Source of the DNA: Thermodesulfobacterium geofontis OPF15
GTDB lineage: Bacteria; Desulfobacterota; Thermodesulfobacteria; Thermodesulfobacteriales; Thermodesulfobacteriaceae
Assembly: GCF_000215975.1 (NCBI RefSeq)
Contig: NC_015682.1
Coordinates: 496,001 to 560,000, forward strand
DNA: 64,000 bases
Direction: 5' to 3'
In this document: in pieces, positions 30,579-39,253 of the stretch
Layout: each line of letters begins with the position of its first letter
How positions within the stretch are numbered: position 1 is the first letter of the stretch
The notes under the pieces: model-generated
Databases searched by the model: none
Seen by the model: the letters and a program-made list of their open reading frames with translations, nothing else
What the model was told of the DNA's origin: nothing
Program-made: the position numbers and the translations under genes

Positions 30579-31289
30579 TTAAAAATCAGCTTTTATAACA
30601 AAAGCACCTTTATCTTCAGCACTTTTTTGAATTTCTTCTTTTATTTCTACCGCAACTATGGTAGGGATTACTTCACTTTTTAAAACATAAGCAAGTATTC
30701 CTGCTCTTTCTATGGCTCTTTCTATATCATCCTCTTGAAGGCTATAAGAAACTTCAATTGCTAAATATACTTCTTTTTTCACTTTTTTTATTTCACCCTT
30801 TATTAATAGATCAAGCTGTAATGCAGAAACTTTTTGATCTTCAGTAATTATTTTTTCTTCTTCAGCAGTTTCAAGGAGGGGGATTATTTCTTCAAAAGGA
30901 ATTAATTTGCTTTTTCTCAAAATTCTACCAAAATATGCATAATATCGTTCTCTGATTGTTCTTTCAAATTCTTTTCCTTTAAATCTACCGAATTCCCCCT
31001 TAAGATAAGCAACATCCTGTTTTAAAACAGCGACATCCTGTTTTAATATAGCAACGTCTTGTTTTAATATTTCTACATCCTTTTCAATTTTATCAACCTT
31101 TTTTTCAAGTTTTTCCATTCTAACAAGCATTTCCTCAAATTTTTTAGGTAGCTCTATCAATTCAGTGGTTAAAATAATTTTTCTTAACTCTTCCAGCCAT
31201 TCAGGATGTTCTCTTAAAGCTCTTATAATATCTGCAAAAGTCAGTACAGGTTGTTTTTCCATTTCTTTTTCTTTATTTAGAGATTGCAT
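30579..31289 (-). CDS. Coiled-coil protein of the COG5493/DUF3782 type
   Basis: The 236-residue protein has a helical N-terminus, a heptad coiled coil around residues 55-100 with three near-perfect repeats of LKQDVA (visible as 21-bp repeats in the DNA), then a C-terminal domain with ALQLDLLIKGE...EVYLAIEVSYS that resembles a PD-(D/E)XK nuclease fold. The expected Lys of the E-x-K motif is Ser here, so nuclease activity is doubtful. Such coiled-coil proteins are common in thermophiles and have no known role. An internal ATG at 31262 is an alternative start; neither has a strong ribosome site. Confidence 0.7.
   Translation of the reverse strand: MQSLNKEKEMEKQPVLTFADIIRALREHPEWLEELRKIILTTELIELPKKFEEMLVRMEKLEKKVDKIEKDVEILKQDVAILKQDVAVLKQDVAYLKGEFGRFKGKEFERTIRERYYAYFGRILRKSKLIPFEEIIPLLETAEEEKIITEDQKVSALQLDLLIKGEIKKVKKEVYLAIEVSYSLQEDDIERAIERAGILAYVLKSEVIPTIVAVEIKEEIQKSAEDKGAFVIKADF
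30990..31085 (-). repeat. 21-bp tandem coding repeat in the coiled-coil gene
   Basis: Roughly four degenerate 21-bp units encode consecutive heptads ending in LKQDVA and LKGE. The unit length equals one coiled-coil heptad, so expansion or loss of units would change coil length without breaking the frame. Confidence 0.7.
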
Positions 31290-31452
31290 AATTTAATTAG
31301 TTTTGCTTTTTTAAAATTAAAATTTTTCAATAAAAATAAATATAAAAGATACAAAAAAGAATGCAATAGATAACGAGATAAATATTTCTAAAAATGCTTA
31401 TTTTTTGATCTTGGGATATGAAAGATATAGGGGATTTGAATTTCTAAAAATG

Positions 31453-31525
31453 AGCCGGCGGAGGGGCTTGAACCCTCAACCTTGGGATTACAAATCCCAC
31501 GCTCTGCCTATTGAGCTACGCCGGC
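31453..31525 (-). tRNA. tRNA-Thr (UGU)
   Basis: The reverse complement folds as a cloverleaf with acceptor GCCGGCG/CGCCGGC, D arm GCTC...GAGC, anticodon loop TTTGTAA (anticodon TGT) on stem TGGGA/TCCCA, and T arm GAGGG-TTCAAGC-CCCTC. The discriminator is T and no CCA is encoded. Last of three clustered tRNAs. Confidence 0.95.
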
Positions 31526-31540
31526 AATATATACGCTCCT

Positions 31541-31632
31541 CGGAGGAGGCGGGATTCGAACCCGCGGCACGGGTTTTTAGCCCGTGCACTCGCTTAGCAG
31601 GCGAGCGCCTTCGACCTCTCGGCCACTCCTCC
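31541..31632 (-). tRNA. tRNA-Ser (GCU)
   Basis: A 92-nt class II tRNA: acceptor GGAGGAG/CTCCTCC, anticodon loop CTGCTAA (GCT) on stem CTCGC/GCGAG, a long variable arm (GCACGGGC...GCCCGTGC-type helix), and T arm GCGGG-TTCGAAT-CCCGC. Discriminator G; CCA not encoded. Confidence 0.95.
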
Positions 31633-31641
31633 ATTTTTTTC

Positions 31642-31716
31642 TGGTTCCGGGGCGTGGATTCGAACCACGATTCTGGGAGCCAAAGTCCCATGTCCTGCCA
31701 GTTAGACGACCCCGGA
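31642..31716 (-). tRNA. tRNA-Gln (UUG)
   Basis: Acceptor TCCGGGG/CCCCGGA with discriminator A and an encoded CCA (31642-31644), D arm GTCT/GGAC, anticodon loop CTTTGGC (TTG) on stem TGGGA/TCCCA, T arm CGTGG-TTCGAAT-CCACG. A U1-A72 end pair is normal for bacterial tRNA-Gln. First gene of the cluster. Confidence 0.95.
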
Positions 31717-31734
31717 ACTATTTATATCATAAAA

Positions 31735-31762
31735 AATATAACATTTCTTTCTTTTTTGTAAA
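31735..31762 (-). promoter_or_regulatory. Predicted promoter of the tRNA-Gln-Ser-Thr cluster
   Basis: On the minus strand TTTACA (31757-31762) and TATATT (31735-31740) are 16 bases apart, predicting a start about 12 nt before tRNA-Gln. Both hexamers differ from consensus by one base. Confidence 0.55.
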
Positions 31763-31833
31763 GAGCTATTTAAATTACTTATTGGTCAATCTCATCACAG
31801 AATAAATCAAGCCTAAAATTTTTAATTTGTCTC

Positions 31834-31895: not shown

Positions 31896-32339
31896 ATGGT
31901 TTTAATATCAGAAATAGTAAAAGATTTTAAAAAATTTATAAGGAAAAAAGGATTAAAATATACCTCTGAAAGAGAGGAAATACTTAAGGAAATTTTAGAA
32001 TCCAAAAATCATTTTGATGCTGATGAGCTTTATATGAAGTTAAGAAAAAAGGGTAGTAAAGTTTCAAAAGCCTCAGTTTATAGAACCCTTCCTCTCCTTG
32101 TTGAAGCAGGTTATATTCAGGAAGTTTATAGACAAGATGCAAGATCTTATTATGAACTTACTTTAGATAAGCTCCCCCATATTCATTTTATATGTGTTAA
32201 ATGTAAAAATGTAGATGAAATATTAGATAATTATTTAGCTGAACTTATTCAAAAAGAAGCTAAAAATAAAAATTATACACCATTAACCTATCATTTAGAA
32301 ATATTTGGTATTTGTGCAAATTGCAAAAAAGGGGTATAA
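31896..32339 (+). CDS. Fur-family metalloregulator (Fur or PerR-like)
   Basis: The 147-residue protein has a winged-helix domain (YTSEREEILKEIL, SKASVYRTLPLLVEAGYIQEV) and a dimerisation domain with HIHFICVKC (His95, His97, Cys100, Cys103) and FGICANC (Cys140, Cys143), the four-Cys structural zinc site of Fur/PerR/Zur. His39 matches the regulatory His of PerR. The residue near PerR Asp85 appears to be Glu87, more Fur-like, so the sensed signal (iron or peroxide) is uncertain. It overlaps no other gene and heads a run that includes feoA, which supports iron; the shared operator with peroxiredoxin supports peroxide. Confidence 0.9.
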   Translation: MVLISEIVKDFKKFIRKKGLKYTSEREEILKEILESKNHFDADELYMKLRKKGSKVSKASVYRTLPLLVEAGYIQEVYRQDARSYYELTLDKLPHIHFICVKCKNVDEILDNYLAELIQKEAKNKNYTPLTYHLEIFGICANCKKGV

Positions 32340-32346
32340 TTTCAAA

Positions 32347-32640
32347 ATGTTATTAATTGAAGCAAGATGTGGAGATAAAGTAAAGATTAAAGAAATTCTT
32401 GGCGATGAGGCGGTGCTAAAAAAAATAGAGGCTATGGGATTAAGAAAAGGGGATATTTTTGAAGTTATTCAGAGATGGGGAAGAAATTTATTAATAAAAA
32501 ATGGAAACAATAGATTGGTGATAAGTTCAGACATAGCTAAAAATATAGAAGTAGAATTAATAGAAACCTCTCCCCCTCCTTGTGAATTTAAACCCTGTAA
32601 AGGAAAAAAATGGAGATGGAGATGGGGTTGGTTTAAATGA
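32347..32640 (+). CDS. feoA: FeoA-like protein with a Trp-rich C-terminal tail
   Basis: From ATG 32347 this is a 97-residue protein. Residues 1-75 are a FeoA/SH3-like domain (EARCGDKVKIKEILGDEAVLKKIEAMGLRKGDIFEVI, RLVISSDIAKNI). A tail follows with PPPCEFKPC and a cluster of four Trp and several Lys/Arg near the end. FeoA assists the FeoB ferrous iron transporter; no feoB is in the window. The start is 7 nt after the fur stop and the stop overlaps the next gene by 4 nt. An upstream start at 32305 would overlap fur and is not needed. The tail is unlike standard FeoA. Confidence 0.8.
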   Translation: MLLIEARCGDKVKIKEILGDEAVLKKIEAMGLRKGDIFEVIQRWGRNLLIKNGNNRLVISSDIAKNIEVELIETSPPPCEFKPCKGKKWRWRWGWFK

Positions 32641-33605
32641 AAAGAAAATTTAGTAGAATTCCCATTTCTAATACTGTAGAATTTTTTTGGCAAAATAAAA
32701 GCTATGAAGGAGTTTTAAAAGATTTGAGTTATGGAGGATTATATATTGAAAGCAAAATAATTCCCTCTATAGATGAAGAAATACCTATTGTTTTATTTTT
32801 AGAAGGGACACACCCTTCAATTAAACTCTTTTTTAAAGGAAAGGTTGTAAGAACAAATAAAGAAGGCTTTGCGGTTAAATATACCTATATTTCTCCTGAG
32901 AGTTTTGAACATTTTAAAAATTTTGTAAATTATAATTATCCCTCCTTAGAAATAGCAGAAAAAGAGGTTTATAGATTCTTAGGAGAAGCACATCCTTTAT
33001 TTAAAGGTTTTATAAATCTTAATATTTTAGCTTTGAAAAATGAAATTTTAAAATTTATTTTAGAAAGAGCTTTTTTATATAGTCCAGATAAACCCTTTAT
33101 TCTTTCAAGTGGCAAAGAAAGTCCTTATTATCTTGATTGTAGAAAGATTACTCTTTATTCTTTGACTTTTGGTTTGGTAGGTGCACTTTTTTGGCAAAAA
33201 ATTAAATATTTAGGAGTTGATGGAGTTGCAGGAATGAGTATAGGTGCAGATCCAATTGTATGTTCTATTCTTGCTAAAGCAAACGAAGAAGATATTTCCT
33301 TAGAAGGGATTTTTGTGAGAAAGGAACCTAAAAAATATGGAACTCAAAAACAGATTGAAGGAAATATAAGAGGGGGAATGGATATTGTTCTGGTAGAAGA
33401 TGTGGTAACCACAGGTAGCTCAGTTCTTAAAGCAGCTGAAATACTTGAAAAAGAAAAACTTCACATTATTAAAATTTTTGCTTTGGTTGATAGAGAAGAA
33501 GGAGGAAAAGAAAATATAGAAGCTAAGGGATATGAATTTGAAGCTTTTTTCACTCTTAGCGAGATCTTAAAAAGACATCAGGAATTATCAAATAAAAATG
33601 CTTAA
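32637..33605 (+). CDS. pyrE: PilZ domain fused to orotate phosphoribosyltransferase
   Basis: One uninterrupted 322-residue frame joins two domains. Residues 1-105 are a PilZ-like c-di-GMP-binding domain with the RxxxR motif (Arg3/Lys4...Arg7 in KRKFSRIP) and DLSYGGLYI, the D/NxSxxG motif. After a linker, residues about 135-318 are orotate phosphoribosyltransferase: SSGKESPYYLDCRKITL, GVAGMSIGADPI, RKEPKKYGTQKQIEG and the PRPP loop IVLVEDVVTTGSSVLKAAEIL. The enzyme makes OMP from orotate and PRPP. Coupling to a c-di-GMP receptor would be unusual. Both domains look intact. It overlaps feoA by 4 nt; pstS follows after 15 nt. Confidence 0.88.
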   Translation: MKRKFSRIPISNTVEFFWQNKSYEGVLKDLSYGGLYIESKIIPSIDEEIPIVLFLEGTHPSIKLFFKGKVVRTNKEGFAVKYTYISPESFEHFKNFVNYNYPSLEIAEKEVYRFLGEAHPLFKGFINLNILALKNEILKFILERAFLYSPDKPFILSSGKESPYYLDCRKITLYSLTFGLVGALFWQKIKYLGVDGVAGMSIGADPIVCSILAKANEEDISLEGIFVRKEPKKYGTQKQIEGNIRGGMDIVLVEDVVTTGSSVLKAAEILEKEKLHIIKIFALVDREEGGKENIEAKGYEFEAFFTLSEILKRHQELSNKNA

Positions 33606-33620: not shown

Positions 33621-34652
33621 ATGAAAAAAATGGTATGGATTTTAAGTTTTTTTATAATTATTTTAGGAATTTATGCTTGCAAAAAACCTTCTGAAAAAAT
33701 AGAAGTAAAAAAATTTCTTAACGGAGCTGGAGCAAGCTTTCCATATCCGCTTTATGCAAATTGGGCAAACGAATATTATAAACTTACAGGAATTAAAATT
33801 AATTATCAATCCATAGGTTCTGGAGGAGGTATCAGGCAGATTATAGAAAAAACAGTTGATTTTGGAGCAAGTGATATGCCTCTTAAACCAGAAGAAGTAG
33901 AAAATAAAAAACTTTTACAATTTCCAACTGTAATAGGTGCTGTGGTACCTGTAGTAAATCTACCTGAATTAAAAAATTTATATCTAATACTTGATGGTGA
34001 AACGCTTTGTGAAATATATTTAGGAAAAATTACCAAATGGAATGATTCAAAGATTAAAGCTTTAAATCCCGGGGTAGAGCTTCCAGATAAATCTATAACA
34101 CCTGTATATAGAGCTGATGCATCAGGAACAACAGCTATTTTTACAAAGTATTTAACAGAGGTATGTAAATCTTGGAAAGATAAAGTAGGGTATGGAACAG
34201 CTGTAAACTGGCCTGTTGGTATAGGTGCTAAAGGTAATGAAGGGGTGGCAAATTATGTTAAAAGAACTCCTTATACTATTGGATATGTAGAAATTGTTTA
34301 TGCTTTTCAAAATAAACTTTCTTACGTAAAACTTAAAAACCTCTCTGGTAATGTAGTTGAACCAAGGGAGGAGAATATTAGAGAAGCAGCTCTTTATGGA
34401 AATTTTGATCCTTCTAAACATTTCTATACCTGGCTTACAAACACTCCAGGAAAATCTGCTTGGCCTATTGTAGGAGCAACTTATATTCTTCTTTCACAAG
34501 ATAAAGAAGAAACTAATAAAGAGGTGGTAAAATTTTTTGATTGGGCATTTAAAGAAGGAGACAAAATTGCTAAAGATTTAACTTATACACCTCTTCCAGA
34601 AGAAATAAAAGAAAAAATCCGAAATTATTGGAAAAAATACAAAATATTTTAA
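33621..34652 (+). CDS. pstS: Phosphate ABC transporter substrate-binding lipoprotein PstS
   Basis: The 343-residue protein starts with a lipoprotein signal (hydrophobic stretch then LGIYAC, lipid Cys near 20). Phosphate-binding features of PstS follow: GAGASFPYPLYANWANEY, YQSIGSGGGIRQI, DFGASDMPL, YRADASGTTAIFTKYL and WPVGIGAKGNEGVANYV. It binds phosphate in the periplasm for PstCAB. An AAAGGAG ribosome site precedes the ATG. A small frame overlaps its 3' end before pstC. No pho-box could be identified by eye. Confidence 0.95.
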   Translation: MKKMVWILSFFIIILGIYACKKPSEKIEVKKFLNGAGASFPYPLYANWANEYYKLTGIKINYQSIGSGGGIRQIIEKTVDFGASDMPLKPEEVENKKLLQFPTVIGAVVPVVNLPELKNLYLILDGETLCEIYLGKITKWNDSKIKALNPGVELPDKSITPVYRADASGTTAIFTKYLTEVCKSWKDKVGYGTAVNWPVGIGAKGNEGVANYVKRTPYTIGYVEIVYAFQNKLSYVKLKNLSGNVVEPREENIREAALYGNFDPSKHFYTWLTNTPGKSAWPIVGATYILLSQDKEETNKEVVKFFDWAFKEGDKIAKDLTYTPLPEEIKEKIRNYWKKYKIF

Positions 34653-37337: not shown

Positions 37338-38486
37338 ATGTTTGTTCCAGAAGGATTTTTATTTTCGGGAATATCTTGTGGTATAAAAAAAGAAGATAAA
37401 CTTGATTTAGGATTAATTTATTCTCCTGAAGAACTTACTGCTTGGGGTGTATTTACTACTAATACAGTAAAAGCTATTCCTGTTTTATTAGGAAAACGGC
37501 TTATTAGAGAAAAAAAGATTCATGGAATTCTGGCTAATAGCGGTGTTGCAAATGCCTGCACAGGGGAAGAAGGTTTTAAAAGAGCTTTAACAATTCTTAA
37601 AGAAGTGGCTAAATACTTAAAAATTCCCTATAAAAGTTTACTTCCAGCCTCAACCGGAGTAATAGGAGAACAATTACCTTTAGAAAAGATTTTACCAAAT
37701 ATTCCTACTCTTATTTCTAATCTTTCAGTACAAAATTACATTCAATTTGCTAAAGCTATCATGACTACTGATACTTTTCCTAAAATAGTATCAAAAAAAA
37801 CCGAGGATGGAATAGTTATATTTGGGGTAGCCAAAGGTGCTGGGATGATAGCTCCTAATATGGCAACTATGCTTGCTTTCATTTTAACAGATGCTGAAGT
37901 ATCTAAGGATTATTTAAAAAAAAGTCTTCCTAAAATGGTAGAACAAAGTTTTAACAGAATTACAGTTGATGGAGATACCAGTACTAATGACACAGTTTAT
38001 ATGTTATGTAGTAATTTAAAAAAAATTAAAAACTGGGAAAAGTTTGAAAGCCTTTGTTTAGAAGTTGCTAAGGAACTTGCTTACCTTATAATAAAAGATG
38101 GAGAAGGGACAAGTAAAGTTATCAAAATCTTAATAAAAGGAGCTAAAACTAAAAATGAAGCAAAAATTCTTGCAACATCTGTTGCTAATTCTCCATTAGT
38201 AAAAACTGCTTTTTACGGAGGAGATCCTAATTGGGGGAGAATATTTTCAGCTCTTGGTAAAAGTGGAATAAAATTCAATCCTCAGGAAATAGAGATTTAT
38301 TTAAATGGGATTCCTTGGGTTGCTAATTTTAAAAGCATAAATAATGAAGCTAAAATTAAGGAAGAAATGAGAAAACCTGAAATAGAACTTTGTATAAGAC
38401 TTAAACAAGGGAAAATGAGCTACGAAATGTTAACTACAGATTTAACTGAGGAATATATCAGAATAAATGCACATTATAGAACATGA
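37338..38486 (+). CDS. argJ: Glutamate N-acetyltransferase / amino-acid acetyltransferase ArgJ
   Basis: The 382-residue protein has the ArgJ features: TNTVKAIPVLLGKR, ILANSGVANACTGEEG, KGAGMIAPNMATMLAFILTDA where the proenzyme cleaves itself before Thr, and ITVDGDTSTNDTV. It ends with the AYRT-like tail (NAHYRT). It transfers acetyl from N-acetylornithine to glutamate in the cyclic arginine route; thermophile enzymes often also use acetyl-CoA. It lies 11 nt after pstB and overlaps surE by 4 nt. Confidence 0.95.
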   Translation: MFVPEGFLFSGISCGIKKEDKLDLGLIYSPEELTAWGVFTTNTVKAIPVLLGKRLIREKKIHGILANSGVANACTGEEGFKRALTILKEVAKYLKIPYKSLLPASTGVIGEQLPLEKILPNIPTLISNLSVQNYIQFAKAIMTTDTFPKIVSKKTEDGIVIFGVAKGAGMIAPNMATMLAFILTDAEVSKDYLKKSLPKMVEQSFNRITVDGDTSTNDTVYMLCSNLKKIKNWEKFESLCLEVAKELAYLIIKDGEGTSKVIKILIKGAKTKNEAKILATSVANSPLVKTAFYGGDPNWGRIFSALGKSGIKFNPQEIEIYLNGIPWVANFKSINNEAKIKEEMRKPEIELCIRLKQGKMSYEMLTTDLTEEYIRINAHYRT

Positions 38487-39253
38487 AGATACTTCTTACA
38501 AATGATGACGGAATCTATTCAGAAGGTCTCTGTGCATTATACGAAACTTTAGTTCTTGATCACGAAGTTTATATAGTTGCTCCTGAAAGTGAAAGGAGTG
38601 CAGTTGGTCATGCTATAACTATAGAACAACCTTTAAGGGTTAGAAAAGTTAAAAGGGGGAAATATTTTTGGGGATATGCAATAAATGGTACTCCTGCTGA
38701 TTGCGTAAAACTTGCTCTTTATGAACTTATAGGACCAGTAGATTTGGTTATTTCTGGTATTAATAAAGGAGCAAATGTAGGAATTAATCTTTTATATTCA
38801 GGAACTGTTTCAGCAGCAACAGAAGCTAAAATACTTGGATATTCTTCTATTGCTGTTTCTATAGATGCTTATGAAGATGTAGACTATTGTTTTGCAGCAA
38901 ATTTTATAAGCACCTTTATAAATTATGCTTTTGATTTGCCACTTGATTTACCTTTTTGTTTAAATATTAATATTCCTCATATAAATCCTTATAAAATTAA
39001 AGGAATTAAATTTGTTAGACAATCAATTGCTAAATTAAAAGAAATTTTTGATAAGAGACTTGATCTTCATGATAAAATTTATTATTGGCAAGGAGCAGAA
39101 GAATATACAGAAAAAGATCCAGATACAGATGTAATAGCATTAAAAGAAGGCTATATTACTATCACACCTATTAAATTTGACCTAACAAATTATTCTTCTC
39201 TAAATAAGCTTAAACAAATAGATGATAAAATTTTAAAAAATCTTGTTGTATAA
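38483..39253 (+). CDS. surE: 5'-nucleotidase SurE
   Basis: The 256-residue protein has the SurE metal-site start MKILLTNDDGIYSEG (Asp8-Asp9), APESERSAVGHAIT, INGTPADCVKLA and SGINKGANVGINLLYSGTVSAA. SurE is a metal-dependent phosphatase acting on 5'- and 3'-nucleotides. It closes the plus-strand run that starts at fur. An AT-rich inverted repeat followed by a T run lies just after the stop. Confidence 0.95.
   Translation: MKILLTNDDGIYSEGLCALYETLVLDHEVYIVAPESERSAVGHAITIEQPLRVRKVKRGKYFWGYAINGTPADCVKLALYELIGPVDLVISGINKGANVGINLLYSGTVSAATEAKILGYSSIAVSIDAYEDVDYCFAANFISTFINYAFDLPLDLPFCLNINIPHINPYKIKGIKFVRQSIAKLKEIFDKRLDLHDKIYYWQGAEEYTEKDPDTDVIALKEGYITITPIKFDLTNYSSLNKLKQIDDKILKNLVV

Follow-up and report, generated by a model that had tools for sequence, protein, structure and literature searches.

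A PilZ domain fused to orotate phosphoribosyltransferase in Thermodesulfobacterium geofontis and its relatives, a candidate c-di-GMP-tuned step of pyrimidine synthesis

PilZ receptors are known mainly for outputs in motility, exopolysaccharide and virulence. Known orotate phosphoribosyltransferases (OPRTases; PyrE) are, to our knowledge, either stand-alone proteins or fused to OMP decarboxylase. The NCBIfam and PDB matches of the protein described here agree with this architecture; among the PDB matches listed, none has a PilZ domain. Control of an enzyme by c-di-GMP through a PilZ protein is already known: MapZ, together with c-di-GMP, inhibits CheR1 (PMC6370697). Fusions of PilZ with enzymes are known as well. 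Indeed, in the cellulose synthase BcsA the PilZ domain shares the chain with the catalytic domain and leans on it (PMC12564702), and PixB of Myxococcus xanthus (PilZ-PilZ-GNAT) binds c-di-GMP, a binding which its authors think stimulates the enzyme during development (PMC8316039). In Escherichia coli, a genetic link has been described between pyrimidine synthesis and the biofilm state (PMC3281075). In the literature searched, which included few subscription papers, we found no description of a PilZ domain joined to an OPRTase or to another nucleotide-synthesis enzyme, and nothing on Thermodesulfobacterium together with PilZ; where PilZ and OPRTase terms occur together, the co-occurrence is apparently incidental, judging from titles and word counts. 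What is new in the gene presented here is its architecture and its metabolic target, while the receptor and the enzyme are both known.

The window, i.e., the whole stretch of DNA analysed, covers 64,000 nucleotides of the T. geofontis OPF15 genome (NC_015682.1, positions 496,001 to 560,000, forward strand). At positions 32637-33605 of its forward strand, a single reading frame of 322 codons is open throughout and free of frameshifts, and includes the following features:

32637..33605, + strand: PilZ-PyrE fusion gene, 322 aa; open frame, both domains above curated cut-offs
32640..32927, + strand: PilZ domain, residues 2-97 (Pfam PF07238, 49.7 bits; PilZ fold, PA4608/MapZ as top match)
32643..32657, + strand: RxxxR motif, R3-R7, kept in 21/21 fused genomes
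32721..32738, + strand: DxSxxG motif, D29-S31-G34 (DLSYGG), canonical in 16/21 fused genomes
32928..33029, + strand: helical linker, residues 98-131 (predicted AlphaFold helices 87-100, 104-118 and 120-145)
33030..33575, + strand: OPRTase domain, residues 132-313 (TIGR00336, 128 bits; fold, VIA Z of about 20)
33318..33341, + strand: OPRTase catalytic loop RKEPKKYG, residues 228-235 (alignment with human UMP synthase)
33387..33422, + strand: PRPP-binding motif VLVEDVVTTGSS, residues 251-262 (alignment with solved OPRTases)

The PilZ score (49.7 bits) compares with a curated Pfam cut-off of 22.5 bits. The equivalog-domain profile TIGR00336 (pyrE) matches residues 152-309 with 128 bits, over a cut-off of 106.8 bits. 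Thus, the first-pass annotation was right that one intact frame joins a PilZ domain to a complete OPRTase, and the peptides it had read as PilZ motifs, KRKFSRIP and DLSYGGLYI, carry R3-R7 and D29-S31-G34. The catalytic loop RKEPKKYGT, which resembles RKETKDYGT of human UMP synthase, and the PRPP motif VLVEDVVTTGSS are both nearly invariant among the fusions. The protein has no predicted membrane part.

The full-length AlphaFold model, a monomer built from 7 sequences, had a mean pLDDT of 85 and a pTM of 0.79. Its OPRTase half matched solved OPRTases with VIA Z of about 20 and an rmsd of 2-3 Å. Since this whole-model comparison took in the OPRTase half only, the PilZ half was folded (AlphaFold, pLDDT 86) and searched alone. 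The top Foldseek matches were PilZ proteins, with probability 1.00 and moderate TM values (approximately 0.5-0.6). PA4608/MapZ ranked best, including c-di-GMP-bound MapZ with CheR1 (5xly), followed by Alg44, PlzA and MrkH with c-di-GMP. Coherently, the sequence profile of the PilZ half placed PA4608 first, with a weak score (E 0.003-0.005), and this alignment takes in a C-terminal helical extension that corresponds to the linker in the fusion. In the AlphaFold model, the last linker helix is predicted to run on into the helix that opens the OPRTase fold.

Full-length fusions were identified in 21 of the 41 genomes searched in this order (53-100% identity), distributed over three genera of one family; relatives with a name are Thermodesulfobacterium, Caldimicrobium and a Thermodesulfobacteriota MAG. 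The remaining genomes searched have a separate PyrE without a PilZ part, except G405 and G408, which are both incomplete. Across 395 genomes of the phylum, every full-length match among the matches listed belongs to that one family. Beyond the phylum, one peptide-pattern scan of GTDB contigs, a method that finds just such relatives, returned close relatives only, and independent fusions may thus still occur in distant lineages. No plasmid record searched covers 80% of the fusion protein, and the matches listed take in the OPRTase half only. The domain pair, which the first-pass annotation had suggested seeking in relatives, recurs in 20 other genomes with 53-81% identity, and chance is therefore excluded. 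In the phylogenetic tree, the OPRTase halves of the fusions group in a single clade (support 100/99), which points to a single origin of the fusion; the tree of the PilZ halves agrees with one origin, with moderate support (74/98). The fusion is kept in each genome of the fused clade in which pyrE was found.

A frameshift or a start within the linker, named in the first-pass annotation as a sign of two proteins, was sought along all 21 fused genes: none has a frameshift or an in-frame stop. It is most improbable that the locus yields two separate proteins, whether through an internal start or through proteolytic cleavage of the linker. The junction of the T. geofontis gene does contain a start-like codon, a single TTG at codon 133, and relatives have start-like codons scattered along the junction; however, codon 133 lacks a Shine-Dalgarno sequence, the position of these codons varies over the family, and those preceded by an SD-like tetramer are isolated cases. 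An internal translation start was rejected, as no start is conserved across the fused genes. Furthermore, a helix (residues 120-145) is predicted by AlphaFold to span the PilZ-OPRTase junction, which would also speak against the two-protein reading. A split product from the fusion gene is unlikely.

The RxxxR motif is present in 21/21 fusions, and the second motif, (D/N)xSxxG, is canonical in 16/21. Both c-di-GMP motifs are intact throughout the genus Thermodesulfobacterium. In the other five fusions, all from genera on the Caldimicrobium side (g2 and g5), the second motif has drifted to DLGFGG, DLALGG, DIGLGG, DMSLGS and DFSLAS. Thus, a PilZ fold without c-di-GMP-binding residues, which the first-pass annotation would have counted against its proposal, is not found here nor in 16 of the 21 fusions, and the concern retains its force for the five in which the second motif has drifted. 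As far as the sequences indicate, these five members argue against a universal control by c-di-GMP. PixB of Myxococcus lacks the motif Ser and the protein binds c-di-GMP nonetheless, although the binding domain is not settled (PMC8316039); by analogy, the absence of Ser alone need not stop binding. Binding may well be affected in the two members that lack the final Gly.

The motif drift also bears on a reading in which PilZ, at least for some of the clade, is degenerate or structural: it would not sense c-di-GMP, serving instead the stability of the dimer, heat stability, or the recognition of another ligand or protein. PlpA of Myxococcus, with intact motifs and reportedly non-binding (PMC8316039), is a further point in its favor and means that intact PilZ motifs are no guarantee of binding. 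We regard this reading as rather improbable, considering that RxxxR is kept in 21/21 fusions, that all Thermodesulfobacterium members have both motifs and that the modelled fold best matches c-di-GMP-bound PilZ structures.

We calculated dN/dS on ten pairs by a counting method (custom script), in which some dS values are near saturation. The values were 0.07-0.23 for the PilZ half, which is therefore under purifying selection, and 0.03-0.14, where computable, for the OPRTase half, which is under purifying selection as well. In divergent pairs, conservation is lower in the PilZ half (57-71%) than in the OPRTase half (79-85%).

When the non-fused sister genomes are compared with the PilZ half, a stand-alone protein of approximately 123 aa comes out as its best separate match; the one protein compared shares 35% identity over 117 residues with the fused PilZ half. 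In five of these genomes the stand-alone gene lies directly upstream of radA and pyrE is separate, following argB in the radA-PilZ genomes inspected:

L076 4182-4553, - strand: stand-alone MapZ-like PilZ upstream of radA, second motif DxAYGG
L079 4068-4439, - strand: stand-alone MapZ-like PilZ upstream of radA, second motif DxAYGG
L080 662-1033, + strand: stand-alone MapZ-like PilZ upstream of radA, second motif DxAYGG
L081 4493-4864, - strand: stand-alone MapZ-like PilZ upstream of radA, second motif DxAYGG
L098: stand-alone MapZ-like PilZ upstream of radA, second motif DxAYGG

A radA locus was located in 20 fused genomes, none of which has a PilZ within approximately 1.5 kb of it. Two further non-fused genomes (G414 and G416) have neither the fusion nor the radA-type stand-alone PilZ. 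The linker of the fusion has its homologue in the helices at the C-terminus of the stand-alone proteins, which can be aligned up to about residue 127. The simplest reading is that the PilZ gene moved once from the radA site to the N-terminus of PyrE, in the ancestor that the fused genera share. As the best relative at 35% identity suggests, the fused PilZ is probably the same gene as the radA-linked one and not a paralogue. In a few relatives, proteins of approximately 650 aa also match the PilZ domain (L087 992-2929, - strand; G309:C43:23630-23950; G402:C35:10684-11004). The one at L087 begins like a membrane sensor, and the PilZ domain may therefore be recruited elsewhere too.

A free-standing PilZ relative unlinked to pyrE, as found in the sister genomes, is what would be expected if the two genes were merely joined into a bifunctional tether without allostery. 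PilZ would then keep its own older task, to bind c-di-GMP and another target, as its radA-side relative presumably does, and the OPRTase would work normally; the faster evolution of the PilZ half than of the OPRTase half in divergent pairs is in line with this. We consider such a tether unlikely, if with more than a slight chance. Against it, no genome of the fused clade with a pyrE found has lost the fusion, T. geofontis has no second pyrE over the cut-off, no PilZ lies at radA in the fused genomes with a radA locus, and the predicted junction is a short helical one rather than a long, flexible linker.

The first-pass annotation had also described an operon that the gene shares with Fur and FeoA as well as the phosphate transporter. 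The neighbouring genes in the window are:

31896..32339, + strand: Fur-family regulator (Pfam FUR), no constant partner of the fusion
32344..32640, + strand: FeoA (Pfam FeoA), its stop overlapping the fusion start ATG by 4 bases
33621..34652, + strand: PstS-like phosphate-binding protein (Pfam PBP_like_2), 15 bases downstream of the fusion
37338..39253, + strand: argJ-surE (Pfam ArgJ for the first gene; tblastn context comparison)

The fur, feoA and pstS genes are indeed placed as claimed in the window, but the tie is weak: fur-feoA upstream and pstS downstream were found in Thermodesulfobacterium-type loci only and are absent on the Caldimicrobium side and in the early branches. In the tblastn context comparison, the genes that most constantly lie downstream of the fusion are argJ-surE. 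They follow with pst in between in the long Thermodesulfobacterium-type loci (window, L040 and L042), and directly or after a small insert in Caldimicrobium-type and early-branching loci (L043, L044, L089, L090 and L093); within the stretch compared, neither argJ nor surE was seen in the L088/L092 group. Fur, FeoA and Pst were rejected as the core of a mechanism, as the Caldimicrobium-side and early-branching fusions adjoin argJ-surE without fur, feoA or pst. Further upstream, two open reading frames at 31405-31805 (+ strand) are probably spurious, as three tRNA genes (Thr, Ser and Gln) lie there on the - strand. At 30579-31289 (- strand), a protein of 236 aa is encoded that contains a heptad-like stretch, MEKLEKKVDKIEKDVEILKQDVAILKQDV, and matched nothing in Pfam.

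The fusion is the only pyrE over the cut-off in the T. geofontis genome, and pyrF is present. It follows from the standard pathway that de novo UMP must pass through the fusion, which is therefore predicted to be active as an OPRTase. The genome also has 13 GGDEF, 4 EAL and 3 HD-GYP matches, hence c-di-GMP is very likely both made and degraded in this organism. As a side observation, nrdR and pyrF are paired in 24 of the 26 genomes of the family with an identified pyrF (L126 7343-8522; genome C1 1191342-1192521), so that the gene of the ribonucleotide-reductase repressor adjoins that of the step after OPRTase. In T. geofontis a GGDEF-EAL gene is divergent to this pair (L126 5663-7276, - strand); as a second tie between c-di-GMP and pyrimidines it was dropped, as it was not found at that place in the relatives checked.

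With MapZ as a model, i.e., a PilZ adaptor that inhibits the enzyme it touches when c-di-GMP is present, we propose that the same could happen in cis: the fusion protein is most likely a c-di-GMP-tuned OPRTase, MapZ-like within one chain. The OPRTase half would convert orotate and PRPP to OMP, and the PilZ half would bind c-di-GMP via R3/R7 and D29/S31/G34. The bound c-di-GMP would reorder the N-terminal arm against the PilZ barrel, and the signal could pass through the helical linker (87-100, 104-118 and 120-145), continuous with the first OPRTase helix, to the OPRTase dimer. OPRTase activity would then change, with inhibition at high c-di-GMP, in a sessile and slow-growing state, more likely than activation. 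Considering the MapZ-like fold and the full c-di-GMP network, both c-di-GMP binding by the PilZ domain and allosteric control of the enzyme are plausible. The chances appear evenly balanced that this is an OPRTase with a PA4608/MapZ-type N-terminal PilZ domain whose activity is altered, likelier by inhibition, when c-di-GMP binds. We suggest more tentatively, at a little under even chances, that across this thermophile clade de novo pyrimidine synthesis is under direct allosteric control by c-di-GMP at OPRTase, exerted through a PilZ domain of the same chain. Confidence in c-di-GMP control is not higher mainly because of the drifted motifs in Caldimicrobium-side members.

In T. geofontis the PilZ receptor sits inside the only enzyme for an essential step of nucleotide synthesis. 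If the coupling is true, c-di-GMP would set the UMP supply directly, with a lifestyle second messenger wired to nucleotide supply, and the fusion would provide a mechanistic example of a pyrimidine-biofilm link such as that seen genetically in E. coli. As a thermophile protein with no membrane part predicted, it should be readily accessible to binding and kinetic assays, and the sister genomes with separate PilZ and PyrE provide a natural before-and-after comparison.

Among the described systems, MapZ/PA4608 has in common with the fused PilZ both motifs and the C-terminal helical extension HLxxLxxxNLxxxExxExEL. MapZ is, however, a separate single-domain adaptor of Pseudomonas aeruginosa that meets its methyltransferase target in trans, whereas the fused PilZ is covalently joined to OPRTase. 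The claim is that the fused PilZ works like MapZ, not that it is MapZ, and there is no reason to expect inhibition of a chemotaxis methyltransferase. PyrE proteins (TIGR00336; human UMPS domain 2wns, M. tuberculosis 5hkf) share with the fusion the fold, the PRPP motif and the loop RKExKxYGT. PixB is similar in having PilZ joined to an enzymatic domain, which is an acetyltransferase of motility and development and not an essential biosynthetic enzyme. BcsA differs in being a membrane glycosyltransferase, with its PilZ domain at the C-terminus and a classical exopolysaccharide output.
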